Below, one piece after another: positions 7,113-49,712 of a stretch of DNA of 64,000 bases. Position 1 is the first letter of the stretch; each line of letters begins with the position of its first letter. The notes under the pieces were generated by a model. It did not search any database, had not been told where the DNA came from, and worked only from the letters and a program-made list of their open reading frames with translations. A program made the translations under genes and the position numbers. The stretch lies in contig NZ_JAAAML010000001.1 of assembly GCF_024105735.1 (NCBI RefSeq), positions 939,809 to 1,003,808 on the forward strand, read 5' to 3'. Source of the DNA: Parahoeflea alexandrii. Its GTDB lineage: Bacteria > Pseudomonadota > Alphaproteobacteria > Rhizobiales > Rhizobiaceae.

Positions 7113-7222
7113 GCAGCGTTGGCTGCGGGTAAAGCTGCAAAGACGGCAAATGGCATCTTGACGGCTCCGGCATGGCGCAGGACAGTGGGGCTTAAAGCCA
7201 GTCCCAACGTCCGGAGTATGTG

Positions 7223-13697: not shown

Positions 13698-13850
13698 CCG
13701 GCTGACGTTTCCCGCGATGGCCAGAGGAGGCTGTCCGGGAGCGTTGAACATAAGGCATTGTCCGGGCACGGGACCCGTCCGGACCCAAAATGTCGGGAGG
13801 AATTGGGTCCCCGAACTGGCGTGATCCCCACGCCACATGGGAGGAATACA

Positions 13851-15167: not shown

Positions 15168-15182
15168 CAGCTACACCGAAAA

Positions 15183-15215
15183 CCTGCCGCGCGGGCCCTG
15201 GCTGCGCGCGGCAGG
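15183..15215 (+). terminator. Intercistronic hairpin after the binding-protein gene
   Basis: Arms at 15183-15193 and 15205-15215 form an 11-bp GC-rich perfect stem with an 11-base loop. There is no T-run after it. It probably protects the binding-protein message and reduces read-through into the LivF gene, as in many importer operons. Confidence 0.55.
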
Positions 15216-15253
15216 CAACTGCCCCAAGTTTCATTCCCGACCGGAGAGGGTCC

Positions 15254-16096
15254 ATGTCGATGTCCACGTCCGTATCAACCGATGCGACCGCACAGCCGAA
15301 CATCCTGGCGGTGAACAATATCGAAGTGATCTATGATCACGTGATCCTTGTGCTCAAGGGCGTGTCGCTGGTGGTGCCGGAAGGCGGGATCGTTGCGTTG
15401 CTCGGTGCCAATGGCGCGGGAAAGTCGACGACGCTGAAAGCGATTTCCAACCTGCTGCGTTCCGAGCGCGGCGAGGTGACCAAGGGATCTATCGAATTTG
15501 AAGGCAAGCGTGTCGAGGCGCAGACAGCCAATGAGCTGGTGCGGCGCGGTTGCATCCAGGTGATGGAGGGCCGGCATTGCTTCGGCCATCTCACCGTTGA
15601 GGAAAACCTGCTCACAGGCGCGTTCACGCGACGTGACGGCAATGCCGCGATCAAGCGCGATATCGAGATGGTGTATGACTATTTTCCGCGACTGAGAGAG
15701 CGCAGGACCAGCCAGGCCGGCTACACATCCGGCGGCGAACAGCAGATGACGGCCATCGGGCGGGCGCTGATGAGCCGGCCAAAGATGATCCTGCTCGACG
15801 AACCGTCGATGGGACTGGCGCCGCAGCTGCAGGAAGAAATCTTCGAGATCATCAAGAAGCTCAACGAGCAGGAAGGCGTGTCGTTCCTGCTGGCCGAGCA
15901 GAACACCAATATTGCGCTGCGCTATGCCACCTATGGCTACATTCTCGAATCCGGCCGTATCGTCATGGATGGCGTGGCGAAGGACTTGCGTGAAAACGAG
16001 GACGTCAAGGAATTCTACCTCGGTGTTGGCGGCGAAGGACGGCGATCTTTCAAGAACGTCAAGCACTACAAGCGGCGCAAGCGCTGGCTGGCCTGA
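15254..16096 (+). CDS. Branched-chain-type ABC transporter ATPase (LivF family)
   Basis: A 280-residue ATPase, partner of the LivG protein at 10457. Walker A 'GANGAGKST' is at about residue 50, the signature 'SGGEQQM' at about 159, and Walker B 'ILLDEPSMGLAP' at about 178. A very basic C-terminal tail (last 15 residues rich in Lys, Arg and Tyr) extends beyond the usual family end. GGAGAGGG at 15243-15250 fixes the start at ATG 15254, with ATG 15260 as an in-frame alternative. The 86-base gap to the binding-protein gene contains the hairpin. It is the last gene of the ligase/importer operon before the TetR promoter. Confidence 0.92.
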   Translation: MSMSTSVSTDATAQPNILAVNNIEVIYDHVILVLKGVSLVVPEGGIVALLGANGAGKSTTLKAISNLLRSERGEVTKGSIEFEGKRVEAQTANELVRRGCIQVMEGRHCFGHLTVEENLLTGAFTRRDGNAAIKRDIEMVYDYFPRLRERRTSQAGYTSGGEQQMTAIGRALMSRPKMILLDEPSMGLAPQLQEEIFEIIKKLNEQEGVSFLLAEQNTNIALRYATYGYILESGRIVMDGVAKDLRENEDVKEFYLGVGGEGRRSFKNVKHYKRRKRWLA

Positions 16097-37431: not shown

Positions 37432-39471
37432 CTAGCCGCGGTTGCGGCGTCCGCCGCGCCTTCGTCCGGCGCCGGGTTCGATGCCGTCGGCGGCATCGGT
37501 GTCCATCGAGCGCTCGGGCAGCTTGACCACTTCCGTCAGCCGCGGGAAGGCGTCGACCTTGTTGGGGAAGGCCATGGCGTTGACGAAATGCTCCTGGAAT
37601 TTCGATTCAAGCGCGGTCTCGATCTTCTCGATACGCGTCACTGTCTGTTCGATCTCGCGGCGGTGGCTGCGGTTGAGGAGCGCCATGCGGGCTCCGGTGC
37701 CTGCCGCGTTGCCGACCGCCTTGACCTTCTCCAGATCGCAATCTGGAACGAGGCCGAGGACGAGAGCGTATTTCGGATCGATGAAGGAGCCGAAGGCGCC
37801 GGCAAGCCCGATGCGGTCGACATGATCGATGCCCTGCTTGTCCATCAGCAGCTTCACGCCGGCATAGAGCGCCGCCTTTGCGAGCTGGATGGCGCGGACA
37901 TCGGTCTGGGTCACCATCAGCCGCTGCTCGCCGTCACGCAGCAGGTAAGAGAAGGTGCGGCCGTTGCCGGTGATCCGCGGGCTGCGGGCTGCGAGATCGC
38001 CGTTGATGACGCCATCCTCGGTGATGATGCCGGCGAGGTACATCTCGGCGATGATCTCGATGATACCGGAGCCGCAGACGCCGGTAACGCCGACTTTCTT
38101 CGCCGCTTCGTCAAAGCCCGGTTCGTCCGACCACGGCTCGATGCCGATGACCCGGTAGCGTGGTTCGAGCGTTTCCGGATCGATGCGGATGCGCTCGATG
38201 GCGCCGGGGGCGGCGCGCTGGCCGCAGGAGATCTCCGCGCCCTCGAAGGCCGGGCCGGTGGGCGAGGAGGCAGCGACGGTGCGGGCCGAGTTGCCCAGCA
38301 CGATCTCGGCATTGGTGCCGACATCGACGAGCAGCATCATCTCGTCCTGGCGGTGCGGGCCTTCGGTCAGCGTCGCTGCGGCCGCATCGGCGCCGACATG
38401 GCCTGCTATGCAGGGCAGCATGTAGACCCGGGCGCCGGGGTTGAGCGGGATGTCGATCTCGGAGGACTTGACATTGACCGCGCCGGAGACGGCCAGCGCG
38501 AAAGGTGCGCCGCCGAGCTCGGTCGGGTCGATGCCGAGAAACAGGTGATGCATGATCGGGTTGCCGACGAAGACCGCGTCGAGGATGTCGCCGCGGTCGA
38601 TCTCGCCTTCCTTGCAGACCTTGTCGATCAGTCCGTTGATCGCCTCGCGCACGGCAATTGTCATGCCCTCGCGGCCTTCCGGGTTCATCATCACGTAGGA
38701 GACCCGGCTCATCAGGTCCTCGCCGAAGCGGATCTGCGGGTTGGATGTGCCGGACGAGGCCAGCGTGCGGCCCGACAAGAGCGATGAGAGATGCATGGCG
38801 ATGGTGGTGGAGCCGATGTCGCAGGCGACGCCGTAGGCTTCGTTTTTCAGGCCGGGATACAGCGCGACCAGTGTCGCTGCCCCGCCATCGACGGGTTCGT
38901 GAACCGCGGCGGTGACCTTCCAGTCACCTTTTCGGAGAATCTGCTGTACCTGGCCATAAAGATAGGCGTCGATCGCAAGTCCCTTGAAGCCCCAGTCGGC
39001 CTCGATGGCCATCAGCAGCCGGTCAAGGTCGCCGAGCGGCTTGTGCATGTCGGGCTCTTCGACCTCGACATAGCACATGTGAATGGCTGGATTGCGCTCG
39101 ATGACGCGCCCGTCGGAATCCTTGCGAACCACCTGCGCATTGACCACGGCATCCTGCGGGATGTCGATGACCAGATCGCCGAGGATTTTGGCCGAGCAGG
39201 ACAGTCTGCGACCGGCTTTGAGGTCACGCTTTTCGGCGTAGCGCACCTCGTTTCCGCCGAAAGGCGAGATATGCTCCTTCGACGAGGTGATGCCGTGCTT
39301 GGCGAAGACGCCTTCCTGCACATCGACCTGGCAGCGCCCGCAGATGCCGCGGCCGCCGCAGACGCTCTCGACATGCACGCCCAATTGCCGCGCGGCATCG
39401 AGCACCGGCGTGTCTGTCGGGAAACGGCCGCGCTTGCCCGAGGGCATGAACAGGACGAGATGGTCGGTCAT
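37432..39471 (-). CDS. RACo/RamA-type ATP-dependent reductive activator of corrinoid proteins
   Basis: A 679-residue protein. The N-terminal [2Fe-2S] ferredoxin-like domain has 'CGGRGICGRC' (Cx5Cx2C) and a fourth Cys in 'RRLSCSAKI'. An ASKHA-fold ATPase domain (DUF4445) follows, with phosphate loops 'VACDIGSTTIAMHL', 'LLVDVGTNAEIVLG' and 'LAGAFGSFID'. Proteins of this class reduce the inactive cob(II)alamin state of corrinoid proteins to cob(I)alamin with ATP hydrolysis. The immediate partner should be the corrinoid protein at 45233. Unusually, it ends in an Arg-rich tail (AGRRRGGRRNRG) not needed by the catalytic domains. ATG 39471 is chosen because it lies 7 bases after the methyltransferase stop; the longer frame only re-reads that gene out of frame. 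Confidence 0.88.
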   Translation of the reverse strand: MTDHLVLFMPSGKRGRFPTDTPVLDAARQLGVHVESVCGGRGICGRCQVDVQEGVFAKHGITSSKEHISPFGGNEVRYAEKRDLKAGRRLSCSAKILGDLVIDIPQDAVVNAQVVRKDSDGRVIERNPAIHMCYVEVEEPDMHKPLGDLDRLLMAIEADWGFKGLAIDAYLYGQVQQILRKGDWKVTAAVHEPVDGGAATLVALYPGLKNEAYGVACDIGSTTIAMHLSSLLSGRTLASSGTSNPQIRFGEDLMSRVSYVMMNPEGREGMTIAVREAINGLIDKVCKEGEIDRGDILDAVFVGNPIMHHLFLGIDPTELGGAPFALAVSGAVNVKSSEIDIPLNPGARVYMLPCIAGHVGADAAAATLTEGPHRQDEMMLLVDVGTNAEIVLGNSARTVAASSPTGPAFEGAEISCGQRAAPGAIERIRIDPETLEPRYRVIGIEPWSDEPGFDEAAKKVGVTGVCGSGIIEIIAEMYLAGIITEDGVINGDLAARSPRITGNGRTFSYLLRDGEQRLMVTQTDVRAIQLAKAALYAGVKLLMDKQGIDHVDRIGLAGAFGSFIDPKYALVLGLVPDCDLEKVKAVGNAAGTGARMALLNRSHRREIEQTVTRIEKIETALESKFQEHFVNAMAFPNKVDAFPRLTEVVKLPERSMDTDAADGIEPGAGRRRGGRRNRG

Positions 39472-39478
39472 GGGTGGG

Positions 39479-40441
39479 TTATGCTCCACCGGCGCGGGCT
39501 GCGCGGCCGCCGCGGCGGCGTCCGCCGCCATCGCCGGAGGGGGCTGCGGACTGTGGGGCAGGGGCGGAGCCGGCGACATGCGGCTGGTAGTCCTTGTAGG
39601 TCTTGATCCAGTTCATGCAATTGGCATCGTTGCCCTTGAGCACATTGGCGGCGCGCACCATTTCCATCTCCTGCGGACGACAGGGGTTCATGATCGCCGA
39701 GGTCATGCCGGCTCCGATGACCATCGGAATGAAGCCGGCATTGATGCCGTGACGGTGGGGAAGGCCGAAGGAGATGTTGGACAGGCCGCAGGTGGTGTTG
39801 ACCTTGAGCTCGTTGCGCAGCCGGTGCAGCAGCGCGAAGACCTGCTGGCCGGCGGTGCCCATGGCGCCGATCGGCATGACCAGCGGGTCGACCACGATGT
39901 CATGCGGCTTGATGCCGTAATCGGCGGCGTGCTCGACGATCTTCTTGGCAACGGCAAAGCGCACGTCGGGATCTTCGGAAATGCCGGTTTCATCGTTGGA
40001 GATGGCGACCACCGGGACGTCGTACTTCTTGCACAGCGGCAGGATGGCTTCGAGTTTTTCCAATTCGCCGGTGACCGAATTGACCAGCGGCCGGCCCTTG
40101 GCGATTTTCAGCGCGGCCTCGATTGCGGCTGTCACCGAACTGTCGATGGACAGAGGCACGTCGACCAGGCCCTGAACGATTTCCATGGTCTGCACCAGCA
40201 GTCCGGGCTCGGTCTCGTTCGGGTTGACCGAGGTGACGCCCGCATTGACGTCGAGCATGGTGGCGCCGGCTGCGACCTGTTCCAGCGCGTCCTTGATGAC
40301 GGTGTCGAAATTGCCCTCGATCATCTCGGCGGCAAGCTTCTTGCGCCCTGTCGGGTTGATGCGTTCGCCGATCACACAGAAGGGCTGGTCAAAGCCGATG
40401 ATCACTTCGCGGGTCGCGGAGGCAACGATGGTGCGGGTCAT
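39479..40441 (-). CDS. Methyltetrahydrofolate:corrinoid methyltransferase (pterin-binding family)
   Basis: A 320-residue TIM-barrel enzyme of the pterin-binding family (AcsE / MetH-folate domain type). 'ERINPTGRKKL', 'MLDVNAGV' and 'PLSIDSS' are the pterin and corrinoid contact segments, and 'AISNDETGIS' and 'VDPLVMPIG' are family blocks. It moves a methyl group between methyl-corrinoid and THF. In this demethylating context it would take the methyl from the corrinoid protein at 45233 and give it to THF, feeding MetF. AAGGA 6-7 bases before the ATG at 40441 fixes the start. The last 18 residues are Gly/Arg-rich (GDGGGRRRGGRAARAGGA), an extension beyond the barrel. A palindromic site precedes the gene at 40461. 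Confidence 0.88.
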   Translation of the reverse strand: MTRTIVASATREVIIGFDQPFCVIGERINPTGRKKLAAEMIEGNFDTVIKDALEQVAAGATMLDVNAGVTSVNPNETEPGLLVQTMEIVQGLVDVPLSIDSSVTAAIEAALKIAKGRPLVNSVTGELEKLEAILPLCKKYDVPVVAISNDETGISEDPDVRFAVAKKIVEHAADYGIKPHDIVVDPLVMPIGAMGTAGQQVFALLHRLRNELKVNTTCGLSNISFGLPHRHGINAGFIPMVIGAGMTSAIMNPCRPQEMEMVRAANVLKGNDANCMNWIKTYKDYQPHVAGSAPAPQSAAPSGDGGGRRRGGRAARAGGA

Positions 40442-40460
40442 GTTCGATCCTTGCGGTAGT

Positions 40461-40482
40461 GACATAAAGAATTGTTTATGTC
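40461..40482. promoter_or_regulatory. Palindromic operator GACATAAA-N6-TTTATGTC
   Basis: Perfect 8-base inverted arms (40461-40468 and 40475-40482) around GAATTG lie 20 bases upstream of the methyltransferase start, between that gene and metF. The centre closely matches the palindrome at 49741-49756 upstream of bmt (14 of 18 positions). An ArsR-type regulator of methionine/SAM metabolism (SahR/SamR-like) is a reasonable candidate, not proven. It implies an internal promoter in the operon. Confidence 0.6.
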
Positions 40483-40519
40483 GTTATAGGTTATTGGTTG
40501 GAGATGCAAGCCTTCGGCT

Positions 40520-41620
40520 CTATTCGGATGGCTCTGTGTCACCAGCCACGCCGGCCAGTTCATGGGGCACCTGCCTGGGCTCCTCGAGGATTTCCTCCAT
40601 GCGGGCGGCAACCATTTCATCGACCGGGTTGGGTTCCTTGCGCCAGGGCCTGCGCCCCTTGAGGACGCCCGATTCGTGGACGATCTCGGCCACGAATTCC
40701 TCCTGGCGGTAGGCCATGACGTGGATGCCGGAGACACCTTCGATCTCCTTGACCTCGTTGATGATGTCGATGCAGAGCTGCTTGCCTTCCTTCTTCTGGT
40801 CCTCGGCGCCTTCGAGGCGCTTGATGATCTCGTCGGGAATATGCACGCCGGGTACGTTGGAGCGCATCCATTTGGCTGTGCGCGCCGAGGCCAGCGGGCC
40901 GACGCCGCACATGATGAAGCACTCCTTGTCGAGCCCCATGTCGCGCACCTGCTGCATGTATTTTTTAAACATCGGCACGTCGTAGCAGTACTGGCTCTGA
41001 ACGAACTGGGCGCCTGCAGCGATTTTCTTGGCGAGCCGGTGCGGGCGAAAATCATGCGGCGGCGCGAAGGGATTGATGGCGGCGCCGAGGAATACGGTCG
41101 GCGGGCTGGTCAGCTTGCGGCCGGACAGGAACTTCGAGTTGTCGCGCATGATGCGGATGGTTTCCAGCAGCGACATGCAGTCGAGATCGAACACCGGCTT
41201 GGCGCCGGGCTGGTCGCCGGCCTGCACGCCGTCGCCGGTCAGGCACAGGATGTTCTGCACGCCCATGGCCGAGGCGCCGAGCACGTCGCCCTGAATGGCG
41301 ATGCGGTTCTTGTCGCGGCAGGAAATCTGCATGATCGGGGCATAGCCCATGCGGGTGAGCAGCGCGCAGATGCCGACCGAGGACATGTGGGCATTGGCGC
41401 CCGAGGCATCGACGGCGTTGATGCCATCGACCCAGCCGTCGAAGATGGCGGCGCGCTCATAGACATCGTGCGGATTGGCACTGTCGGGCGGGTTGAGCTC
41501 GGCGGTGACCGCGAATTCGCCGCGCCGCAGGATGCGCTCCAGCCGGCCGAGGGACGAATGGCCGGGCAGCGGTTCGAGCAGGGCGCTGGGATCAAGCGGG
41601 TTGCTGTCGGCCTGGCTCAT
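40520..41620 (-). CDS. Methylenetetrahydrofolate reductase (MetF family)
   Basis: A 366-residue TIM-barrel flavoenzyme family member. Blocks include 'RRGEFAVTAELNPPDSANPHDVYERAAI', 'ILCLTGDGVQAGDQPGAKPVFDLD' (the LxLxGD motif), 'GAAINPFAPPHDFRPHRLAKKIAAGAQFVQSQYCYD' and 'IPDEIIKRLEG'. In biosynthesis MetF makes methyl-THF. In this operon the likely direction is oxidation of methyl-THF, made by the methyltransferase, to methylene-THF. Its start overlaps the stop of the MetV-like gene upstream (ATGA), as in two-subunit MetFV reductases of acetogens and related bacteria. The gene is followed by 78 bases with an operator before the methyltransferase. Confidence 0.9.
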   Translation of the reverse strand: MSQADSNPLDPSALLEPLPGHSSLGRLERILRRGEFAVTAELNPPDSANPHDVYERAAIFDGWVDGINAVDASGANAHMSSVGICALLTRMGYAPIMQISCRDKNRIAIQGDVLGASAMGVQNILCLTGDGVQAGDQPGAKPVFDLDCMSLLETIRIMRDNSKFLSGRKLTSPPTVFLGAAINPFAPPHDFRPHRLAKKIAAGAQFVQSQYCYDVPMFKKYMQQVRDMGLDKECFIMCGVGPLASARTAKWMRSNVPGVHIPDEIIKRLEGAEDQKKEGKQLCIDIINEVKEIEGVSGIHVMAYRQEEFVAEIVHESGVLKGRRPWRKEPNPVDEMVAARMEEILEEPRQVPHELAGVAGDTEPSE

Positions 41621-42207
41621 TGTGGCATTCCCGGGTTGGCCGCGGCTTCACGTTCGGCGGCGGCGTTGGCGGTGACCCGCAACCAGGACGAGGTTTCGCG
41701 CAGCGACTGATCGACCGGTTTCTGGACGTTGAGGATGTTGTCGCGGCCTTTCATCCTGTTTGCGCCGGACCAGGCCTGAACCCAGACGCAGGGCATGTCG
41801 GGTTCGACTTCGCAGTTGCCATTGGCGCGGACGCCGCCGCAGGGGCCGTTGCGTAGCTGTTTCGGGCAGTTCATCGGGCAGGACATGCCGGTCGACGACA
41901 GCACGCACTGGCCGCACATGCGGCAATCGAAAAGGAAGCCCTTGACGTGTTTTTCGACGAACTTGACCGGCGCCTCGGCACGCTCGTAGCCGACGGCCTT
42001 CCACATCGGATGCAGCATCAGGAAGGCGTCGGCAAAGCGGGCGTAGAACCATTCCAGGAAGCGGGCGTTGCGCACCGACCAGAGCCTGATGGCAAAGCTG
42101 CGGGCCTTGCGGCCGGTGGCAGAGACGCCCGACGGCTTGTAGGACGTCGTCTGCGCCGCCTTCTTGTTGAGGCTCGCCTGTGTCGGTTTGGTCGGTTGGT
42201 CAGCCAT
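41617..42207 (-). CDS. MetV-like zinc-finger partner of methylene-THF reductase
   Basis: A 196-residue cysteine-rich protein. The core 'FDCRMCGQCVLSSTGMSCPMNCPKQLRNGPCGG' corresponds to the MTHFR C-terminal (MetV) domain, with Cys spaced for zinc or an iron-sulfur cluster. It then shows 'CEVEPDMPCVWVQAWSGANRM', as found in MetV. In MetFV complexes this subunit passes electrons to and from MetF. The N-terminus is Lys/Thr-rich. It overlaps both neighbours (the small virulence-factor-like gene and metF), so the three are coupled. An in-frame start further upstream would run into the other gene; ATG 42207 is the likely one. Confidence 0.85.
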   Translation of the reverse strand: MADQPTKPTQASLNKKAAQTTSYKPSGVSATGRKARSFAIRLWSVRNARFLEWFYARFADAFLMLHPMWKAVGYERAEAPVKFVEKHVKGFLFDCRMCGQCVLSSTGMSCPMNCPKQLRNGPCGGVRANGNCEVEPDMPCVWVQAWSGANRMKGRDNILNVQKPVDQSLRETSSWLRVTANAAAEREAAANPGMPQ

Positions 42208-42505
42208 GGCTCTCCCTGCCTCCGCCCTTGACCAGGGCCACCAGGCGCTCCTTGTCGTAGGCTGCTTCAAGCTCTGCCGCCGCCCTGTCGGCCTCGGCTT
42301 CAAGATCGTCGGAGACTTCAACCGGATCGGCCCGGCGCCATTCGGCCAGATAGTCGTCGGTCTCGGCGGCGCCGGTCCGCATGGCGCACATATCGATCGC
42401 TTCGGTGAAGCGGAGCGACAGCTCCCGCTTGGCGGTCGCGCGTCCCTTCTTGATGATCACCTGGGCGGGAATGTCACGCCAGTAGACGACGATGCGGTTG
42501 GCCAT
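42200..42505 (-). CDS. Small 'virulence factor' family protein, first gene of the methyl-transfer operon
   Basis: A 101-residue protein with the pattern 'MANRIVVYWRDIPAQVIIKKGR' and 'ELSLRFTEAIDMCAMRTGAAETDDYLAEWRR'. This matches a small family annotated only as 'virulence factor' in Rhizobiales. No enzymatic function is known to me. Its position as first gene before metV and metF suggests a role in assembling or regulating the complex. AGGAGACC sits about 5 bases before ATG. The leader around it (ACTTT-NN-AGGAGACCT) resembles that of bmt at 49712. The last 8 bases overlap the MetV-like gene. Confidence 0.72.
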   Translation of the reverse strand: MANRIVVYWRDIPAQVIIKKGRATAKRELSLRFTEAIDMCAMRTGAAETDDYLAEWRRADPVEVSDDLEAEADRAAAELEAAYDKERLVALVKGGGRESHG

Positions 42506-42647
42506 TTGAGGTCTCCTTGAAAGTTACAATGCGCATGGGAATTTTTCACAGCTTCGCTCACGACGACGTGCGGCGCATCAAAAGCGACCTGCGCGAAGAT
42601 GGAGGTATTTGCGATGATGCCCGGGGTCAAACCGGGACCGTGGAAAA

Positions 42648-43418
42648 CTACCAGATGCGCTTGGTAAGCCCTGTCGCAAGGTAGGTCCAGATCGGAGGAT
42701 GAAACCGCTGGACGGATGGCAGGTCGCTTGTCACGGGCTGCAGGTTCCCATTGAGTGTGTCTTCCACCGCACGAACCACCATCTCGCGGGAGCCCGCCGC
42801 CATCGCCAGCGAATCGGTCAGCAGTGTTTCGTCCGGATGCGGTGTGAGAATGGCCTGATGAAGTGTGCCGCCGGTATCGACGCCGGCATCGACCAGGTGC
42901 ACCGTGGTGCCGTAGTTTTCGTGATCGCCAGTGGCGCGGGCCCACCAGCCGCCGGCCAGGCCGCGGTACTTCGGATTGATGCCCGAGTGATAGTTGATCA
43001 CCGGGCAGGGGATTGCCGCCAGCGTCGCTTTCGACAGCATGCGGCAGCCCGCGAGAAAAACCACATCGGGTTTGCGGGCGGTTATCAGCTCAAGGCAATC
43101 GCTGCCATTGGCGGAGGAAACATGGGTGACCGTAACCTCCGGTGAGAGATCGGCCCGGGCGCCGCTCAAAGCAATGATTTCACGCGTCCGTTTCCCGGCA
43201 AAGCGCTTGCCGAAACGTGAAATGACCATCGTGCCGAACTGGCCGGCGGTCTGGAGCCAGCCGATCTTGCGGGCCCTGCGCTTGAGGAAAAGGCTTTTTG
43301 ATTCCGGCTGTTCGAGGACCACTTCAAGGTTCTCGAAGCGGGAGGCGAGAGCATTGACAATGACCCAGGCATAGGCGCCGCCTGCGGTGATGACGATGAT
43401 TTTCTGCTGACTTGCCAT
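42648..43418 (-). CDS. Formyltransferase family protein
   Basis: A 256-residue protein. The formyl-transferase core is seen as 'VINYHSGINPKYRGLAGG' and 'TVHLVDAGVDTGG', containing the Asn-His-Asp triad of 10-formyl-THF-dependent transferases (Fmt, PurN, ArnA). The N-terminal 90 residues, 'IIVITAGGAYAWVIVNALASRF', form a Rossmann-like part, longer than in PurN. It lacks the C-terminal domain of methionyl-tRNA formyltransferase, so it is not Fmt. The acceptor could be a sugar amine or another amine. It ends 142 bases before the start of the methyl-transfer operon, so a C1 link is possible but unproven. Confidence 0.78.
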   Translation of the reverse strand: MASQQKIIVITAGGAYAWVIVNALASRFENLEVVLEQPESKSLFLKRRARKIGWLQTAGQFGTMVISRFGKRFAGKRTREIIALSGARADLSPEVTVTHVSSANGSDCLELITARKPDVVFLAGCRMLSKATLAAIPCPVINYHSGINPKYRGLAGGWWARATGDHENYGTTVHLVDAGVDTGGTLHQAILTPHPDETLLTDSLAMAAGSREMVVRAVEDTLNGNLQPVTSDLPSVQRFHPPIWTYLATGLTKRIW

Positions 43419-43532
43419 GAAGATCCCACCGAGTTGAAATCGCAGGCTAGTATGGCGGGGTTAAGATCCGGCTATGCCGAATTCAATTCTGATGGCTGCG
43501 CGGATCACGGGCCATAGCCCGGAAACCCGATC

Positions 43533-44177
43533 TCAGAATATGTGCAGCAGAAACGCGCCGGTGGCTGTAACGACAAAGCCGGCAACAGCAAACGAGATCA
43601 AACCGGCAAGGACACCCAGAGCCAGGCAATTGCCGTCACGCTCGGTGTGGGCGACGCCGAGGATGGCGACGGCAAAGGCCGGCAACCAGTTGCCGAAGGG
43701 AATCGGCAAGACGCAAGTGACCGCCAGAAGCAGGGCAAAGATGCCGAACAGCCGTTCGCGGATCGCGCCGCCCAGAGGCCAGTTGCGTGGCCGGACCCAG
43801 TTTTCGGCACCCCGAAGCCAGGGCGAAACCTTTGTCACCATGCGCTGGAACGTGGCCCGGTCTACGGTGTAGTCGGCAAGTGCGCGGGGCAGCCAGACCT
43901 TGTGGTACCCCATCACCATCTGCCAGGCGACAAACACCATCGGCAGGCCGAGGACCATGGTCGCGCCCGGCGGCAGTGGAATCAGATTGGGAACGGCAAA
44001 GACCAGAAGGAAGGCCCCGAAAGAGCGGTCATCGAGTGCAGTGGCGATTTCGCGCATGCTCACGCGTTCACCGGCGTCGCGGGCCAGTCGTTCAAGCAGT
44101 TCGGACAGCTTTTCAGGATGCTTGTGCGAGCTTGCGGCGATGGCGGGAACGGTTGCGGCGGCGGACTGGTGACTCAC
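43533..44177 (-). CDS. exoD: ExoD family membrane protein
   Basis: A 214-residue inner-membrane protein of the ExoD family: cytoplasmic N-terminus 'LSELLERLARDAGERVSMREIATALDDRSFGAFLLVFAVPNLIPLPPGATMVLGLPMV', then about four hydrophobic segments and the 'VLPIPFGNWLPAFAVAILGVA' block near the C-terminus. ExoD was named for exopolysaccharide synthesis and alkali tolerance in Sinorhizobium; its molecular role is unknown. The start is GTG (complement of 44175-44177), preceded by AGGG about 9 bases before. It stands apart from its neighbours, with 134 bases of AT-rich sequence upstream. Confidence 0.85.
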   Translation of the reverse strand: MSHQSAAATVPAIAASSHKHPEKLSELLERLARDAGERVSMREIATALDDRSFGAFLLVFAVPNLIPLPPGATMVLGLPMVFVAWQMVMGYHKVWLPRALADYTVDRATFQRMVTKVSPWLRGAENWVRPRNWPLGGAIRERLFGIFALLLAVTCVLPIPFGNWLPAFAVAILGVAHTERDGNCLALGVLAGLISFAVAGFVVTATGAFLLHIF

Positions 44178-44311
44178 TGGGAAAACCCTGGATGACGATG
44201 CATTTCATATAAGCATGGATTGCTTAAAAATTGTGGCAACAAACATCTCAATGGCAGCGCATACCGAATATTTTTCATTGGCAATTCGGGCAGGCCCGGA
44301 AGCCTTTGCGA

Positions 44312-44950
44312 TCATAGCGGGGCAAGGGCCTTCTCAAGATCGCCATAGCCGGTAAAGCGCCGTTCGAACCGCAAGCCCAGCCGTTCAGCGGCGGCGCGCG
44401 CCTTTGCGTCAAGCTCAGGATCATCGGTCTGGGCCAGATAGAGCGCCCGCTCGTAATGGGCGAAATAGGTGTCGCGCAGCTCCGGGAAGCGGTCCAGCCC
44501 GAGCGGACGGACCAGGAATGTCTCGAAATGCCGGGCGAGAAAATCGGTGATGAAGAAGGTTGTTATCATGTCATCGCCAGCCTCTTCAAAGGCCTGGTTG
44601 CCGACATAGAACGAGAAGCAATGGGGGCCTTCGATCCGCTCGACCCCATGGCTTTCGCACACCTTGTCGAGTTCGCCGCCGGTTCCGCAGTCGGCATAAC
44701 CGATGAAAATGTGTTCGAACCCTTCCTCGCGCGCCTTGCGGATGGCCTGATCAACCGCCGGTGCGATGCGATCCGGATAATGATGATAATTGGCATCGAT
44801 GCATTTGAGGTCGACATGGTCTTGACCGAGCTGCCGGTTGACCGCCAGGACTTCGCGGCCAATCATGCCACAGGCGATGACCCGTACCCGTTTGCCTTGC
44901 GGGGTGCCTGGATCATTGGGGCTTCGGTCTGATTCGGTATGTCCGGTCAT
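44312..44950 (-). CDS. DUF1638 protein, likely methyltransferase-associated
   Basis: A 212-residue protein of DUF1638. 'RVIACGMIGREVLAVNRQLG' and 'LKCIDANYHHYPDRIAPAVDQAIRKA' occur early. The later 'IFIGYADCGTGGELDKVCESHGVERIEGPHCFSFY' carries Cys and His residues in a possible metal site. Genes for this family are found next to corrinoid methyltransferases in several lineages, but I know of no established activity. The Cys/His pattern suggests a zinc or iron site. ATG 44950 is used; upstream in-frame sequence lacks coding character. The corrinoid protein gene lies upstream on the same strand, separated by 282 bases that include a tandem repeat. Confidence 0.75.
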   Translation of the reverse strand: MTGHTESDRSPNDPGTPQGKRVRVIACGMIGREVLAVNRQLGQDHVDLKCIDANYHHYPDRIAPAVDQAIRKAREEGFEHIFIGYADCGTGGELDKVCESHGVERIEGPHCFSFYVGNQAFEEAGDDMITTFFITDFLARHFETFLVRPLGLDRFPELRDTYFAHYERALYLAQTDDPELDAKARAAAERLGLRFERRFTGYGDLEKALAPL

Positions 44951-45142
44951 GATGGTGCCTTTCGCCTGGGCAAGGAGCCGCCACCCAACTGGCTGTTGCA
45001 GAACCGGCGCGCCAAGGTGTCCGGGGATCGAAGTTCCCGGCAATTCGGCCCGAACCTAAGCTTCGGATGCGGCATGGACAAGTCGTGCGGGACGGAGCGT
45101 GCCACATGCGGTGAACGGACGTGCACTCGTCTCGCCGGCTTC

Positions 45143-45196
45143 AGCCAGGCAATGCGATCCGCCAGTTCAAGCCAGGCAATGCGATCCGCCAGTTCA
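45143..45196. repeat. Perfect 27-bp tandem duplication
   Basis: Two adjacent identical units, 45143-45169 and 45170-45196, lie in the gap between the corrinoid protein gene and DUF1638. Each unit begins AGCCAGGCAATGCG and ends CCAGTTCA. No mismatch is seen. It is a recent duplication; a slippage hot spot or a regulatory function is unknown. Confidence 0.9.
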
Positions 45197-45232
45197 CCGC
45201 TTCATTCGTCCAGAGCCTGAGGCAGAGCGCGT

Positions 45233-45934
45233 TCAGGCGCCTGCCGCAAGCCGGTTGTGCCGGCGCTTGATCAGTTCCTTGGCTGTTTCCACCGCGACAG
45301 CGGCATCGCGGCAATAGGCATCGGCACCAACGGCCTTGCCGAACTCCTCGTTGAGCGGCGCGCCGCCGACCAGAACGATGAAATCGTCGCGGATACCCTT
45401 TTCCTTCATGGTGTCGATGACGACCTTCATGTAGGGCATGGTGGTGGTCAGCAGGGCGGACATGCCGAGAATGTCGGGCTGTTCGCGCTCGATGGCCTCG
45501 ATGTAGTTTTCCACCGGGTTGTTGATGCCCAGGTCGATAACATCGAAGCCTGCGCCTTCCATCATCATGCCGACAAGGTTCTTGCCGATGTCGTGAATGT
45601 CGCCCTTGACGGTACCGATGACCATCTTGCCGAGCTTGGGAGCGCCGGTTTCCACGAGCAGCGGGCGCAGGATGAACATGCCGGCCTTCATCGCGTTGGC
45701 GCTCATCAGCACTTCCGGAACGAAAAGGATGCCGTCGCGAAAATCTTCGCCGACAATGCGCATGCCTTCAACGAGAGCCTCGGTGAGGACGTCGTAAGGA
45801 GTCCAGCCGCGACCGAGCAGGATGTTGGTGCCTTCCTCGATTTCTTCCTTGAGCCCGTCATACAGATCGTCATGCATCTGCTGGACAAGTTCATCATCAG
45901 AGAGTTCGGACAGGATGATTTCTTCGTCAGACAT
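45233..45934 (-). CDS. Corrinoid (B12-binding) protein of the methyltransferase system
   Basis: A 233-residue corrinoid protein of the MtaC/MttC type. An N-terminal helical cap (residues about 1-100) precedes the Rossmann B12 domain, whose base-off ligand motif is DIHDIGKN with His114 as lower ligand (DxHxxG). 'GVDIHDIG'-like context 'VIGTVKGDIHDIGKNLVG' and 'LVGGAPLNEEFGKAVGADAY' complete the domain. It carries the methyl group from the MttB-like protein to the THF methyltransferase. The first 35 residues are strikingly acidic (14 Asp/Glu, one Lys). ATG 45934 is chosen because GGGAG sits about 8 bases upstream; it shares a divergent promoter region with the mttB-like gene. Confidence 0.92.
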   Translation of the reverse strand: MSDEEIILSELSDDELVQQMHDDLYDGLKEEIEEGTNILLGRGWTPYDVLTEALVEGMRIVGEDFRDGILFVPEVLMSANAMKAGMFILRPLLVETGAPKLGKMVIGTVKGDIHDIGKNLVGMMMEGAGFDVIDLGINNPVENYIEAIEREQPDILGMSALLTTTMPYMKVVIDTMKEKGIRDDFIVLVGGAPLNEEFGKAVGADAYCRDAAVAVETAKELIKRRHNRLAAGA

Positions 45935-46103
45935 CGGATTCTCCCTTGAATGCACCTGTCAGGTGGTTCGACGCACCGGACCCATCGTGCATAGCGATAT
46001 AGGTGATTGTTTGCAAAAAGTTCCTTGAAAGCGACGCGCATATCGGAAAAAGCGACGGGATGCCGTTTCCGCGGTATTCCGTTGTGCGCCCGATATTCCT
46101 GCT

Positions 46104-46120
46104 GCGCCAAGGCTTGGCGC
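46104..46120. promoter_or_regulatory. 17-bp perfect palindrome in the divergent mttB/corrinoid promoter region
   Basis: GCGCCAAG (46104-46111), one central G (46112), and CTTGGCGC (46113-46120) form a perfect inverted repeat. It sits about midway in the 270-base divergent gap, 84 bases before the methyltransferase start and 170 from the corrinoid start. It is a candidate operator for control of both genes. An AraC/GbdR-type binding site would rather be a direct repeat, so the regulator is open. Confidence 0.6.
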
Positions 46121-46204
46121 TTTGAGGAATGTGCCGGGCATGGTTTTGGCTAGCATGGGATAACCGGCGTGATGGTGCGCCGTTCAAAAACAAGCAGGCA
46201 TTCG

Positions 46205-47794
46205 ATGGCTCATCCAGATACGCTCTCCACCCCTGAACTGGTTCAAGATGCAGCACCCGAGGCGGGTGGCGGACGGCGCGGCAGGGGCGCTGCAGCGCGG
46301 CGTGCGCAACGATCGGGCGGCGGCCCCGGTCAGTCGATGCCGTTCATTCTGCGAAAGCTCGGCAACTACGAAGTGCTGGACGAGGAAGGGCTCAGCCTGA
46401 TCGAGCGCAATGCCGACACCGTGCTCGAGGAAATCGGCATCGAGTTCCGTGATGACGCAGAAGCCATTGCGCTGTGGCGCGAGGCAGGCGCCGACATCAA
46501 GGGCGAGCGGGTGCGCTTTCCCAAGGGACTGTGCCGCGAATTGCTCAAGACAGCACCGGAGGTGTTCACCCAGCATGCCCGCAATCCGGCGCGTTCGGTG
46601 CAGATCGGCGGCAAGGCCACCGTGTTCGCCCCGGTTTACGGCCCGCCCTTCGTGCGCGATCTCGATGGCGAGCGGCGTTATGCCACGATCGAGGATTTTC
46701 GCAATTTCGTGAAGCTCGCCTACATGGCGCCGGCCCTGCACCATTCGGGCGGTACGGTCTGCGAGCCGGTCGACGTGCCCGTCAACAAGCGCCATTTCGA
46801 CATGGTATACAGCCACATGAAGTACAGCGACAAGCCGTTCATGGGCTCGGTGACCGCGCCGGAGCGGGCTGAAGACACGATCGAGATGTGCAAGATCCTG
46901 TTCGGCGCGGAGTTTGTCGACCAGAACTGCGTGACCCTCAACCTGATCAACGCCAACTCGCCGATGGTGTTTGACGAGACCATGCTTGGCGCACTGAAGG
47001 TCTATGCGCGCAATAATCAGGCTTGCGTGGTCTCGCCGTTCATTCTCGCCGGCGCGATGAGCCCGGTGACGGTGGCGGGTACGCTGACGCAGATCCTGGC
47101 CGAAGTGCTGGCGGGAGCTGCGTTCACTCAGTTGATTCGTCCCGGCGCGCCGGTTCTGTTCGGCACGTTTGCCGCCTCGATCTCGATGCAGTCGGGAGCG
47201 CCCACATTCGGCACGCCGGAGCCTGCGCTGGTGTCCTATGGGGCAGCACAGCTGGCGCGACGCCTGAAGATCCCGTTCCGCACCGGCGGATCGCTGTGCG
47301 GCTCGAAGGTGCCGGACGCACAGGCAGCACACGAGAGCGCATCGACGCTGAACATGACGCTTCTGGCAGGCACCAATTTTGCGCTGCATTCTGCCGGATG
47401 GCTCGAGGGCGGACTTGTCTCCTCCTACGAGAAGTTCATGATCGATGTCGACCAGCTCGGCATGCAGCAACGGTTCGCTGAAGGCGTCGACCTTTCGGAA
47501 ACCGGCCAGGCTATGGACGCCATTGCCGAAGTCGGGCCCGGCAACCACTATCTCGGCTGCGCCCATACCCAGGCCAATTTCCAGCAGGCGTTCTACCGTT
47601 CGTCGCTGGCCGACAACAATTCCTACGAGCAGTGGCTCGCTGAAGGCGAAAAGCGCATCGAGGAACGCGCCCGCGCGCTGTGCCGCTCATGGCTTGACGG
47701 CTACGTGGCGCCAGAGCTCGATCCCGCGATCGACGAGGCGCTGCTGGCCTATATCACCGGCCGCAAGGAATCGATGCCCGACGCTTTCACCTGA
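46205..47794 (+). CDS. MttB-family methyltransferase without pyrrolysine (glycine betaine/quaternary amine demethylase type)
   Basis: A 529-residue TIM-barrel methyltransferase of the trimethylamine methyltransferase (MttB) superfamily. The frame is continuous, with no in-frame TAG, so it is of the non-pyrrolysine class whose described members demethylate glycine betaine (MtgB), proline betaine, carnitine and similar compounds. Seen blocks: 'NADTVLEEIGIEFRDDAEAI', 'RATIEDF'-like 'YATIEDFRNFVKLAYMAPALHHSGGTVCEP', 'SPMVFDETMLGALKVYARNNQACVVSPFILAGAMSPVT' and 'EVGPGNHYLGCAHTQANFQ'. Substrate methyl groups go to the corrinoid protein at 45233. Residues 21-43 are Gly/Arg-rich with six Arg, which is unusual for this family. 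ATG 46205 is chosen on coding character; there is no strong Shine-Dalgarno. Substrate identity is inferred from context. Confidence 0.87.
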   Translation: MAHPDTLSTPELVQDAAPEAGGGRRGRGAAARRAQRSGGGPGQSMPFILRKLGNYEVLDEEGLSLIERNADTVLEEIGIEFRDDAEAIALWREAGADIKGERVRFPKGLCRELLKTAPEVFTQHARNPARSVQIGGKATVFAPVYGPPFVRDLDGERRYATIEDFRNFVKLAYMAPALHHSGGTVCEPVDVPVNKRHFDMVYSHMKYSDKPFMGSVTAPERAEDTIEMCKILFGAEFVDQNCVTLNLINANSPMVFDETMLGALKVYARNNQACVVSPFILAGAMSPVTVAGTLTQILAEVLAGAAFTQLIRPGAPVLFGTFAASISMQSGAPTFGTPEPALVSYGAAQLARRLKIPFRTGGSLCGSKVPDAQAAHESASTLNMTLLAGTNFALHSAGWLEGGLVSSYEKFMIDVDQLGMQQRFAEGVDLSETGQAMDAIAEVGPGNHYLGCAHTQANFQQAFYRSSLADNNSYEQWLAEGEKRIEERARALCRSWLDGYVAPELDPAIDEALLAYITGRKESMPDAFT

Positions 47795-47882
47795 ACACAG
47801 CCCGCTAAAGCCAGGGAGACAGGCGGACAGGACAAGGTTACCAGCCTCATTCACAAGGAGGTCTGGCGATCTGCGTTCAAGG

Positions 47883-48596
47883 ATGGGGGGACTGGTGGCT
47901 GACGCTGACCCGGTCTCCGCCATTGCGGCGGCGTTGGAGCCGAGCGGTCTTGTGCCGCGCGGGTGGTTTGTGACCGAACCGGGCTTGGCACCATTGCTGT
48001 CAGATGGAGCATCCGCCCGAGCCATCTGTCTGGTCGGCCATTTCGGCGGCGGTTTCTGGCCGGTCTTCAAGGCATGGTGGCAGAACCACCCGGGGCTCTC
48101 CGAGCCGCTAGACAGTTGGTCCCGGGCGGTGATCGATCCGGTTACGGCAACGCTCGGCTGCGAGGCCGTCTATCCTTCGGATCGGCCGTGGTATCCGTTC
48201 CAGCAATGGGCGATGGCCGCCGAAGGGCTAAAGGCGTCGCCGCTGGGCATGCTCGTTCATCCCGAATTCGGGCTTTGGCACGGCTATCGCGGGGCGATGC
48301 TCATGGATGAGTTTGCGCTTGAGCGGCTGGGTAACCGGGCACCGAGCGGTCCACCGGTGGCTATGCATCCCTGCGAGGGATGCGCGGAGAAGCCTTGCCT
48401 TTCTGCCTGCCCGGTAAACGCCTTCACCGGAAGCGGGTTTGCCGCCGCGGATTGCCGGAGGTTTCTGGCTTCCGAAGCAGGGTTGAGCACCTGCATGGAC
48501 GTGGGCTGCCAGGCGCGGGATGCATGTCCCGTGGGGCGAAGGCATCGCTACAGCGCCGACCAGGTGCGGTTTCATATGGCGGCATTCGGCGGCTAA
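47883..48596 (+). CDS. Two-[4Fe-4S] ferredoxin-like protein
   Basis: A 237-residue protein whose last 100 residues carry two cysteine sets: 'CEGCAEKPCLSACPVNAF' and 'CMDVGCQARDACPVG', each able to bind a [4Fe-4S] cluster, as in the QueG/epoxyqueuosine reductase ferredoxin module. The N-terminal 130 residues (with 'VCLVGHFGGGFWPVFKAWW'-like hydrophobic and aromatic residues) have no match I recognise. Directly 88 bases downstream of the mttB-like gene, it is a candidate electron donor for the reductive activator, but that is inference. The start may be ATG 47883 or GTG 47895. An AAGGAGG at 47855-47861 is too far away to decide. Confidence 0.75.
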   Translation: MGGLVADADPVSAIAAALEPSGLVPRGWFVTEPGLAPLLSDGASARAICLVGHFGGGFWPVFKAWWQNHPGLSEPLDSWSRAVIDPVTATLGCEAVYPSDRPWYPFQQWAMAAEGLKASPLGMLVHPEFGLWHGYRGAMLMDEFALERLGNRAPSGPPVAMHPCEGCAEKPCLSACPVNAFTGSGFAAADCRRFLASEAGLSTCMDVGCQARDACPVGRRHRYSADQVRFHMAAFGG

Positions 48597-48701
48597 GGCA
48601 TTTCCGGTGAGGCCAGAAGCGCTGGAGAAGCTCTATCCTGTTGCAATTCACACTTCCGGAAACAAAACCGGTTTCTTCCTGCGCCGGAACGGCCTTGGGA
48701 A

Positions 48702-49712
48702 TCAGCCCCGGCGGCCGCGGCGTTCGCGGGTGGGCGCGGGATTGTCGGTGGCGACCGTGTTGCGCATCGGGCCGATGCGGTCGACGATGGTGTCCACCGT
48801 CGGGCGCTGGGCCTTGATGTGGCTGTCGACGGCTTCGCGCATGGCGCGCAGGTGGTCACAGGAGGTGCCGCAGCAACCGCCGATGATGCGCGCGCCGGCA
48901 TCCACTGCCAGCCGGGCGTAGTCGGCCATCAGTGGCGGCGTGCCGGAGTAATGGATCTCGGTGCCCTTGAATTCCGGGATGCCGCAATTGCCCTTGACCA
49001 CAACGATGGCTTCCGGATTGGCAGCGGTCATGTCGAGCAGCGACGACAGGATGTCGGATGCGCCGACACCGCAATTGGCGCCGACGGCAACAGGGCCTTC
49101 GCCGATATCGCTGGCGATGGAATGGATATCGCGCGGATGGACACCCATCATGGTCTTGCCGGCGGTGTCGAAGGAGCCGGTATAGACGTAGGGCAGGCCG
49201 CAGCGCACGGCGGCTTCCGCGGCCGCGCGGATCTCGTCCCTGGCCGACATGGTTTCGATCCAGACGATGTCGATACCCCCGGCTTTCAGCCCCTCAATCT
49301 GCTCGACGAAGGATTCGACCGCGGATTCGTAGGTCATGGCACCCAAGGGCACCAGCAGATCACCGGTCGGGCCGACTGAGCCGGCGACGATGACCTTGCG
49401 CGGCGCCTTGTCGGCGACAGCGCGGGCGATCTCGGCCGCCTTCTTGTTGAGGGCAAAGACCCGGTCGTCGGCGTGGTGAAGCTTGAGGCGGTTGCGGGTG
49501 CCGCCGAAACTGTTGGTCAGGATGATGTCGGACCCGGCATCAACGAAATCCTGATGCAGCTTGGTGATCTTCTCCGGCGCCGATTCCAGCCACAACTCGG
49601 GCGCTTCGCCGGATTCCAGTCCCATGGCAAACAGGTTGGTTCCGGTGGCGCCGTCGGCGAGCAGCACGCCTTTTTCGGACAGCAGGTCGGCAAGCGGGTT
49701 GGAAGCGGACAT
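48702..49712 (-). CDS. bmt: Betaine--homocysteine methyltransferase family protein (Bmt)
   Basis: A 336-residue enzyme of the homocysteine S-methyltransferase (BHMT/MetH-Hcy) family. Zinc-binding cysteines are found in 'VGANCGVGASD' and 'IGGCCGTSCDH', with 'LADGATGTNLFAMGL' at the start and 'DIILTNSFGGTRNRL' next. It transfers a methyl group from betaine (or another donor) to homocysteine giving methionine. In Sinorhizobium a related gene, bmt, uses glycine betaine. The C-terminal tail TRERRGRRG is very basic. AGGAG sits 6-7 bases before the ATG at 49712, and a palindromic operator (49741-49756) lies 29 bases upstream. It converges with the ferredoxin-like gene. Confidence 0.87.
   Translation of the reverse strand: MSASNPLADLLSEKGVLLADGATGTNLFAMGLESGEAPELWLESAPEKITKLHQDFVDAGSDIILTNSFGGTRNRLKLHHADDRVFALNKKAAEIARAVADKAPRKVIVAGSVGPTGDLLVPLGAMTYESAVESFVEQIEGLKAGGIDIVWIETMSARDEIRAAAEAAVRCGLPYVYTGSFDTAGKTMMGVHPRDIHSIASDIGEGPVAVGANCGVGASDILSSLLDMTAANPEAIVVVKGNCGIPEFKGTEIHYSGTPPLMADYARLAVDAGARIIGGCCGTSCDHLRAMREAVDSHIKAQRPTVDTIVDRIGPMRNTVATDNPAPTRERRGRRG

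Follow-up and report, generated by a model that had tools for sequence, protein, structure and literature searches.

Four methyl-transfer enzymes encoded in one gene cluster of Parahoeflea alexandrii carry arginine-rich tails, and the corrinoid (B12) protein MtgC, encoded among them, begins with an acidic segment. The cluster lies at positions 37432–49712 of the stretch of DNA analysed here (64,000 nucleotides, positions 939,809 to 1,003,808 of contig NZ_JAAAML010000001.1; hereafter the window) and was assigned, with Pfam and NCBIfam profiles, to ramA, mtgD, metF2, a metV-like gene, a DUF1638 gene, mtgC, mtgB and bmt/mtgE. As judged from the sequences of these genes and of 180 further mtgC loci, the tails mark the enzymes that use MtgC. 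The best explanation for them is that they would act as docking arms for MtgC, a reading to which a probability of about 0.5 was given. Binding to MtgC, the site at which it would occur and the faster methyl transfer that would follow are what we infer from these data.

Tails in the window proteins

By their sequences, the window genes are those of the published split methionine synthase/glycine betaine demethylase MtgB/MtgC/MtgD/MtgE, with RamA and DUF1638 (PMC12478193). In Ruegeria pomeroyi and Phaeobacter inhibens, the split methionine synthase also serves as a glycine betaine methyltransferase (PMC12478193; PMC5764234). Mutants of R. pomeroyi in mtgC or mtgD can neither synthesize methionine nor grow on betaine; MtgB is the methyl donor enzyme, and MtgE, which is homologous to a predicted Bhmt of Sinorhizobium meliloti, makes methionine (PMC12478193). 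RamA and DUF1638 have been linked to cobalamin reactivation (PMC12478193; for DUF1638, PMC5764234). Some of the proteins owe their assignment to mutant phenotypes, to proteomics or to homology, and in the ocean the genes of the pathway show high expression (PMC12478193).

MtgC (45233–45934; minus strand, as are all of the genes named here except mtgB) is a stand-alone cobalamin protein with a cap and a B12 domain (Pfam B12-binding_2 and B12-binding). It belongs to the type-1 MtgC group, with 70–91% identity in relatives; its NCBIfam corrin_MtgC_2 match, at 217 bits, does not reach the cut-off of 370. Encoded near it are the pfam06253 protein MtgB, the pterin-binding MtgD, the S-methyl_trans protein MtgE, RamA and DUF1638.

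The tails are situated at the C-terminus of three of the enzymes and at the N-terminus of the fourth. MtgD, the methyl-tetrahydrofolate (THF):corrinoid methyltransferase (39479–40441; NCBIfam PRK07535.1, 394 bits; start taken from the annotated S. meliloti MtgD), ends in the Arg/Gly-rich GDGGGRRRGGRAARAGGA (39482–39535), with 5 Arg. RamA, a RACo-like corrinoid reductive activator with 2Fe–2S and ASKHA domains (37432–39471; Pfam RACo_C_ter, Raco_middle, RACo_linker and Fer2), ends in the Arg-rich AGRRRGGRRNRG (37435–37470), with 6. MtgE/Bmt, the homocysteine S-methyltransferase module (48702–49712; NCBIfam PRK07534.1, 565 bits), ends in TRERRGRRG (48705–48731), with 5. MtgB, an MttB-family methyltransferase whose likely substrate is glycine betaine (46205–47794, plus strand; Pfam MTTB, 777 bits; start inferred), has the Arg/Gly-rich segment GGGRRGRGAAARRAQRSGGGPGQ, with six Arg, at residues 21–43 (46265–46333), counted from the ATG at 46205. 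All four had been listed in the original prediction, which was made from the window sequence, and all are present, that of MtgB given the stated ATG. MetF2, a methylene-THF reductase (40520–41620; Pfam MTHFR), and the MetV-like protein (41617–42207; Pfam DUF5981; start inferred), both said to be tail-less, have no such tail on inspection of their sequences and served as negative controls. DUF1638 (44312–44950; Pfam DUF1638; start inferred) is also tail-less.

The original prediction placed the tails outside the catalytic folds. The Pfam domains stop before all three C-terminal tails. Pfam MTTB, however, starts at residue 37 of the 541-residue MtgB open reading frame (ORF), 25 residues from the ATG and within the Arg segment, and NCBIfam PRK07534.1 extends to residue 335 of 336 in MtgE, covering the tail, so that curated models already reach two of the tails. 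In the AlphaFold model of MtgD the tail is predicted to be disordered from approximately residue 290, with pLDDT below 50 at residues 290–315 and 317–320.

The annotated cluster on S. meliloti pSymB has a gene order much as in the window. Its highest Arg counts per 15 residues are 6 in RamA, 5 in MtgD, 5 in MtgE and 6 at the MtgB N-terminus. Among 27 translated pSymB genes, 2 others reach 5 Arg at the C-terminal end and 2 others at the N-terminal end, and the signal is therefore modest in one genome alone; its strength comes from conservation.

Two observations concern the same enzymes. The longest ramA ORF starts at 39579, inside mtgD, and 39471 is for that reason the more plausible start; a false Pro/Ala-rich RamA N-terminus could arise from the longer frame in automatic annotation. 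The genome from which the window derives also has three further MttB-family genes outside it (L002, L003 and L004), each with an Arg-rich N-terminus, which suggests that several substrates feed one MtgC.

Conservation of the tails

Two sets of loci were analysed: 100 alphaproteobacterial mtgC loci (L035–L094 and L125–L164), from which the window was excluded, and 80 named loci from the Alpha-, Beta- and Gammaproteobacteria and the actinomycetes. The sets share two genomes with identical MtgC (L346 = L070 and L319 = L162), and three pairs within the first set have identical MtgC. A tail was scored strictly as at least 5 Arg in the last 15 residues, or loosely as at least 5 Arg in a 15-residue window anywhere within the last 35 residues; for MtgB N-termini, at least 4 (or at least 5) Arg in a 15-residue window were called for. 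Fragments without the relevant end, matches below threshold and, in the MtgB count, duplicate N-termini were dropped.

By the strict measure, tails were found in the 100 loci on 54/60 RamA, 58/61 MtgD and 36/38 MtgE proteins. The corresponding background was 41 of 1121 ORFs, and the other cluster proteins were rarely tailed: MetF2 2/21, MetV 0/20, DUF1638 0/86, MtgC 2/100 and the C-terminal end of MtgB 0/52. The loose measure, applied to both sets, gave 111/112 MtgD, 103/107 RamA and 52/55 MtgE (108/109, 101/105 and 52/55 for distinct sequences only), against a background of 219/1965 C-terminal ends, some of them from spurious ORFs. A greedy ORF count over the 180 loci gave 88/90 for RamA, 68/68 for MtgD and 34/38 for MtgE, with 2/37 for MetF2, 3/24 for MetV, 2/92 for DUF1638, 1/93 for MtgC and 2/84 for the MtgB C-terminal end. 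Among MtgB N-termini, 115/117 have at least 4 and 114/117 at least 5 Arg per 15 residues; the N-terminal background at 5 or more is 272/1965.

The exceptions to the loose count are MtgD of L054, RamA of L067, L092, L157 and L331, and MtgE of L087, L094 and L305. In L054 and L067 the wrong ORF was apparently chosen, since the strict background list contains tailed ORFs from both loci. In L157 the Arg-rich stretch of RamA lies further inward, and RamA of L331 and MtgE of L305 have shorter Arg runs. Two MtgB proteins (L313 and L321) fall below threshold. RamA genes distant from mtgC are tailed as well: by eye, 15 of 16 further RamA ends are Arg-rich, the exception being L370 (genome G379). No new family of tailed clients is claimed from the 32 recurrent neighbour families (529 members), in which 54 members are tailed, 37 of them in one large single-linkage cluster of 190 members.

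Arginine was favoured over lysine in every G+C class. The ratio Arg/(Arg+Lys) in the last 20 residues was 0.85–0.97 across six classes (0.30–0.80 G+C), compared with 0.53–0.69 in the protein bodies; it was taken from the 266 of 274 tails that passed the threshold, which biases it slightly towards Arg (an Arg+Lys count would add 3), and the lowest class holds 6 tails. RamA of L367, encoded in DNA of 33% G+C, still ends in SRTSRQNRRRRS. The Arg codons of MtgD tails are mixed, which is all that is retained of a codon test whose tails were picked by the motif RRGGR, making it circular, and whose body columns were unaligned. For MtgD, dN/dS was 0.12 in the tail, 0.24 in the linker and 0.09 in the core (7 close relatives, short tails), and for RamA it was 0.11, 0.21 and 0.21, respectively (5 close relatives, short tails).

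Composition is kept in the tails while the sequence drifts. The motif R-GG(G)-x(1,3)-[AG]-R occurs in 49/112 MtgD and 26/84 MtgB sequences, compared with 12% and 10% after scrambling, and in 3/106 RamA and 1/56 MtgE. By eye, many rhizobial MtgD and MtgB proteins have RG-rich tails, and in many RamA proteins the tail is a run of Arg.

The acidic N-terminus of MtgC

Counted from the ATG at 45934, the first 35 residues of the window MtgC (45830–45934) hold 14 Asp/Glu and one Lys, exactly as had been noted. The 22 residues up to DLYDG contain 5–9 acidic (mean 7.4) and 0–2 basic (mean 0.21) residues in the 180 orthologues, and the motif is near-invariant there; its Leu, Leu, Leu, Gln, Asp, Leu, Tyr and Gly positions do not vary. 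Co-occurrence of the tails with an acidic N-terminus, which the original prediction had proposed to test across homologues, was found in these loci. Of eight families compared, MtgC is the most acidic, with a net charge of –7.9 per 100 residues; the cores of the tailed enzymes range from –2.6 to –4.9, DUF1638 is at –3.4 and MetV at +6.8 (7 short rows were skipped).

The picture of an acidic arm needs correcting, since residues 12–24 of MtgC form a confident helix in the AlphaFold model. Blocks within residues 11–30 have mean pLDDT of 96–97, and residues 1–10 a mean of 79; on this model the acidic part is probably not a floppy arm.

Other corrinoid proteins and genomes without MtgC

As a control, 18 loci were collected (L222–L239) that contain a more distant, type-2 corrinoid protein, 37–50% identical to MtgC. 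Arg tails were found on 0/13 of the RamA-like and 0/9 of the MtgD-like proteins of these loci, with a maximum of 4 Arg. The N-termini of type-2 corrinoid proteins, segments of differing length that were read by eye, are mostly less acidic, with 0–3 basic residues; the exceptions are L233 and L234 (each 6 acidic in 22) and L235.

Two RamA proteins adjoin type-2 corrinoid proteins, each beside another corrinoid methyltransferase system. That of L236 (ORF at approximately 13590–15640, plus strand) has at most 2 Arg, its tail having been lost, and that of L229 (within the ORF 5571–7832, minus strand) has at most 4, in a degraded tail. Both fall inside the tailed RamA clade of 50 rows with support of 100/100, a value for which bootstrapping had not settled. 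Within that clade L229 groups firmly with the tailed L164 (100/99), and the placement of L236, possibly basal, is weak (89/40). The genomes concerned also carry another, tailed RamA (L056; L377). The two loci are natural test cases for partner switching.

For 289 genomes of the class, co-occurrence was tallied by hand; a type-1 MtgC is present in 54. RamA (at least 50% identity) was present in 53 of the 54 and in 4 others, MttB-family genes in the 54 and in 8 others (62 in total), and MtgE in 40 of the 54 and in 4 others, leaving 14 MtgC genomes without MtgE at an E value of 1e–40. The MttB matches in three genomes without type-1 MtgC (G303, G372 and G541) are fragments. In four further genomes with MttB-family genes and no type-1 MtgC found (G360, G366, G487 and G520) the assemblies are 64–82% complete.

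Co-variation within loci

Tails with at least 4 Arg, including those of the window, were compared within and between loci. The possibility that tails of the same locus co-vary as a lineage-specific code was rejected: only MtgD–RamA pairs were slightly more alike than shuffles (z 2.1, 11/400). The remaining z values were –0.2 for MtgD–MtgE, –0.2 for MtgD–MtgB, 0.8 for RamA–MtgE, 0.9 for RamA–MtgB and –1.5 for MtgE–MtgB, and a letter-scrambled MtgD–MtgB control gave 1.6.

Docking on MtgC

In the model of PMC12478193, MtgE/Bmt is a partner of MtgC. The original prediction named the corrinoid protein as the shared partner of the other three enzymes and omitted Bmt; with it included, all four tailed proteins would be MtgC clients. 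Docking is proposed because the tails are rich in Arg and sit on these clients, at either end of the chain and on four unrelated folds, whereas the other cluster proteins seldom have one, and because a different corrinoid partner goes with a missing or degraded tail.

The four tailed enzymes are the split counterparts of domains of the single-chain, MetH-type methionine synthase, together with the methyl donor enzyme MtgB. Each has to press its active site against MtgC, the common cobalamin protein. Disordered, Arg-rich arms may bring the enzymes to acidic MtgC through weak, fast, many-to-many Arg–carboxylate contacts, at least some of which would involve the conserved acidic helix at its N-terminus. 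The tails would then be a composition-based address label for MtgC clients, replacing the covalent linkers of MetH; as the enzyme cores are themselves acidic, they may also cancel repulsion between the cores and MtgC. The lack of locus-specific co-variation fits such fuzzy binding. A broader proposal, which we hold tentatively and at slightly less than even odds, is that of a composition-based client code: every enzyme meeting acidic type-1 MtgC would have acquired an N- or C-terminal Arg tail, interchangeable arms would yield to one another on the single hub, and a tail would predict the methyltransferases that feed MtgC.

A number of results weigh against docking. Most of the acidic segment of MtgC is modelled as ordered, and the segment could be an ordinary interface or simply part of the fold. 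Across loci its acidic content correlates weakly with the basic content of the tails of RamA (rho 0.19) and MtgD (0.22), and not significantly with that of MtgE and MtgB (none of these values is corrected for kinship); apart from the weak MtgD–RamA signal, tails of the same locus are no more alike than those of different loci. The co-variation comes mostly from a single contrast between clades together with the two RamA cases. Both the tails and the acidic motif characterize one clade of MtgC; the large counts therefore do not represent independent events, and the main contrast may come down to one. In MtgE, dN/dS is about the same in the tail (0.23) as in the linker (0.24; 5 close relatives, short tails). 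When Lys is counted with Arg, 6/9 of the MtgD-like ends in the type-2 loci reach 5 in 15, so that the contrast is specific to Arg and not one of charge alone. The corrinoid domain of L235, part of a 716-residue open frame, has 7 acidic residues in 21, but neither its RamA-like nor its MtgD-like partner has a tail. Finally, genome G471 (93% complete) has intact, tailed MttB, RamA and MtgD (L214 and L268) with no type-1 MtgC found, and in the incomplete G366 and G520, too, tailed proteins occur with no MtgC found.

Tailed orphans of this last kind had been named in the original prediction as evidence against docking. A congener of G471 (G566) has MtgC, and the three sets are read as assembly gaps; a true orphan remains a candidate among them. 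Of the docking idea as first put forward, what stands is that the tails are found on MtgC clients, co-occur with acidic MtgC and are absent with the other corrinoid type. The flexible acidic arm probably does not stand, and the expected co-variation of basic and acidic segments holds mainly for the clade contrast and the two RamA proteins.

The tails may instead bind a common polyanion (RNA, DNA or polyphosphate) or drive RG-type condensates, which MtgC would join as an acidic or otherwise recruited member. RG-rich nucleic-acid-binding regions share a preference for Arg, conserved composition and disorder, and the tails resemble them in having Arg over Lys, in keeping composition rather than sequence and, for MtgD, in predicted disorder. 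This is nevertheless unlikely: outside the MtgC clients there are almost no tails, MetF2 and MetV of the same cluster are rarely tailed, and loss or degradation of the RamA tail near a different corrinoid protein, seen in two cases, is unexpected for a general polyanion. Docking on a third protein, most likely DUF1638 as a scaffold or adaptor beside MtgC, is an improbable alternative. A DUF1638 match of at least 100 bits with a full C-terminal end is present in 86/100 mtgC loci. DUF1638 and RamA have nearly the same phylogenetic profile, and the authors who described this put forward no specific role for DUF1638 (PMC5764234). The protein is, however, less acidic than MtgC and has a good match (300 bits) in L235, where the RamA-like and MtgD-like proteins are tail-less.

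There is similarly little likelihood that the tails act within their own enzymes, by neutralizing an acidic core, by affecting solubility, oligomers or turnover, or by binding folate or corrinoid phosphate. The tailed cores are indeed net acidic; four unrelated folds with different substrates nevertheless share tails at either terminus, and the similarly acidic DUF1638 is tail-less. A neutral by-product of G+C-rich DNA and weak constraint at protein ends is close to refuted. G+C-rich windows do encode Arg and Gly, and the loose background is appreciable, but the strict background is lower, an Arg tail persists at 33% G+C, the Arg codons are mixed and dN/dS is low in the MtgD and RamA tails.

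If the tails do dock on MtgC, they would probably hold together the split methionine synthase and glycine betaine demethylase. This bears on the open question of how methionine synthase and other multidomain enzymes can function once their parts diffuse freely and depend on a common cofactor protein. Enzymes feeding MtgC could also be recognized in sequence by their tails, which might further be of use as a tool for wiring B12 enzymes together.

Neighbouring genes

A small gene (42200–42505, minus strand; 101 codons before the stop) lies directly upstream of, and overlaps, the metV-like gene. Its counterpart in S. meliloti (L381) is annotated as 'virulence factor', and 13 of the 180 loci contain members of a family similar to it (MAQRIILSWRDIPAQ...). 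Downstream of mtgB, the later part of 47445–48596 (plus strand) encodes a protein that by eye is like an S. meliloti gene annotated as ferredoxin; a family resembling it recurs in 21 loci, and the protein could donate electrons to RamA. In S. meliloti L381, a 112-residue protein with the basic end AKRVRANARRLAK is encoded between mtgD and ramA (6018–6356, minus strand); in the window, mtgD and ramA directly adjoin without it.

Comparison with known systems

The window shares its gene set with the MtgBCDE systems of Ruegeria, Phaeobacter and Sinorhizobium, with MtgC as the shared hub. No description of tails on corrinoid methyl-transfer enzymes was met in the open-access literature searched, in agreement with the original prediction. 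The word 'tail' is absent from the main texts of PMC12478193 and PMC5764234, and 'arginine-rich' from that of PMC12478193; the supplements of these papers were outside the search.

Desulfitobacterium and methanogens are anaerobes with an MtgA/MtgB/MtgC system and RamA. Chemistry and fold families are the same there as in the window, and the MtgA/MtgB/MtgC system is described in PMC12478193. Structures of relatives in the PDB leave little room for tails, although the constructs may be trimmed: 2 residues precede the MtgB core in 9YCE and 20 in 2QNE, and 9 follow the RamA core in 3ZYY and 4O0Q. Corrinoid chains in the PDB align from residue 11 of the MtgC model or later (1Y80 from 18, 7XCN from 13). 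The MtgB entry 4YYC, which we take to be from S. meliloti, contains the Arg segment.

Recruitment by disordered arms has a precedent in alpha-carboxysomes, where disordered Arg-containing motifs of CsoS2 and CsoSCA recruit these different proteins to Rubisco (PMC10614612). The likeness lies in Arg-containing disordered arms of different proteins directed to one central enzyme. In the MtgC system, in contrast, four catalytic partners would each have an arm, the sequence is fuzzy rather than a fixed motif, there is no known compartment, and binding is predicted from sequence. The catalytic system and hub recruitment by disordered Arg arms are thus each known; it is their combination that was not met in the open-access literature searched. 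Compared with single-chain MetH, the modules for homocysteine, folate, cobalamin and reactivation are the same, but those of MetH are covalently tethered, whereas here they are separate, Arg-tailed chains.

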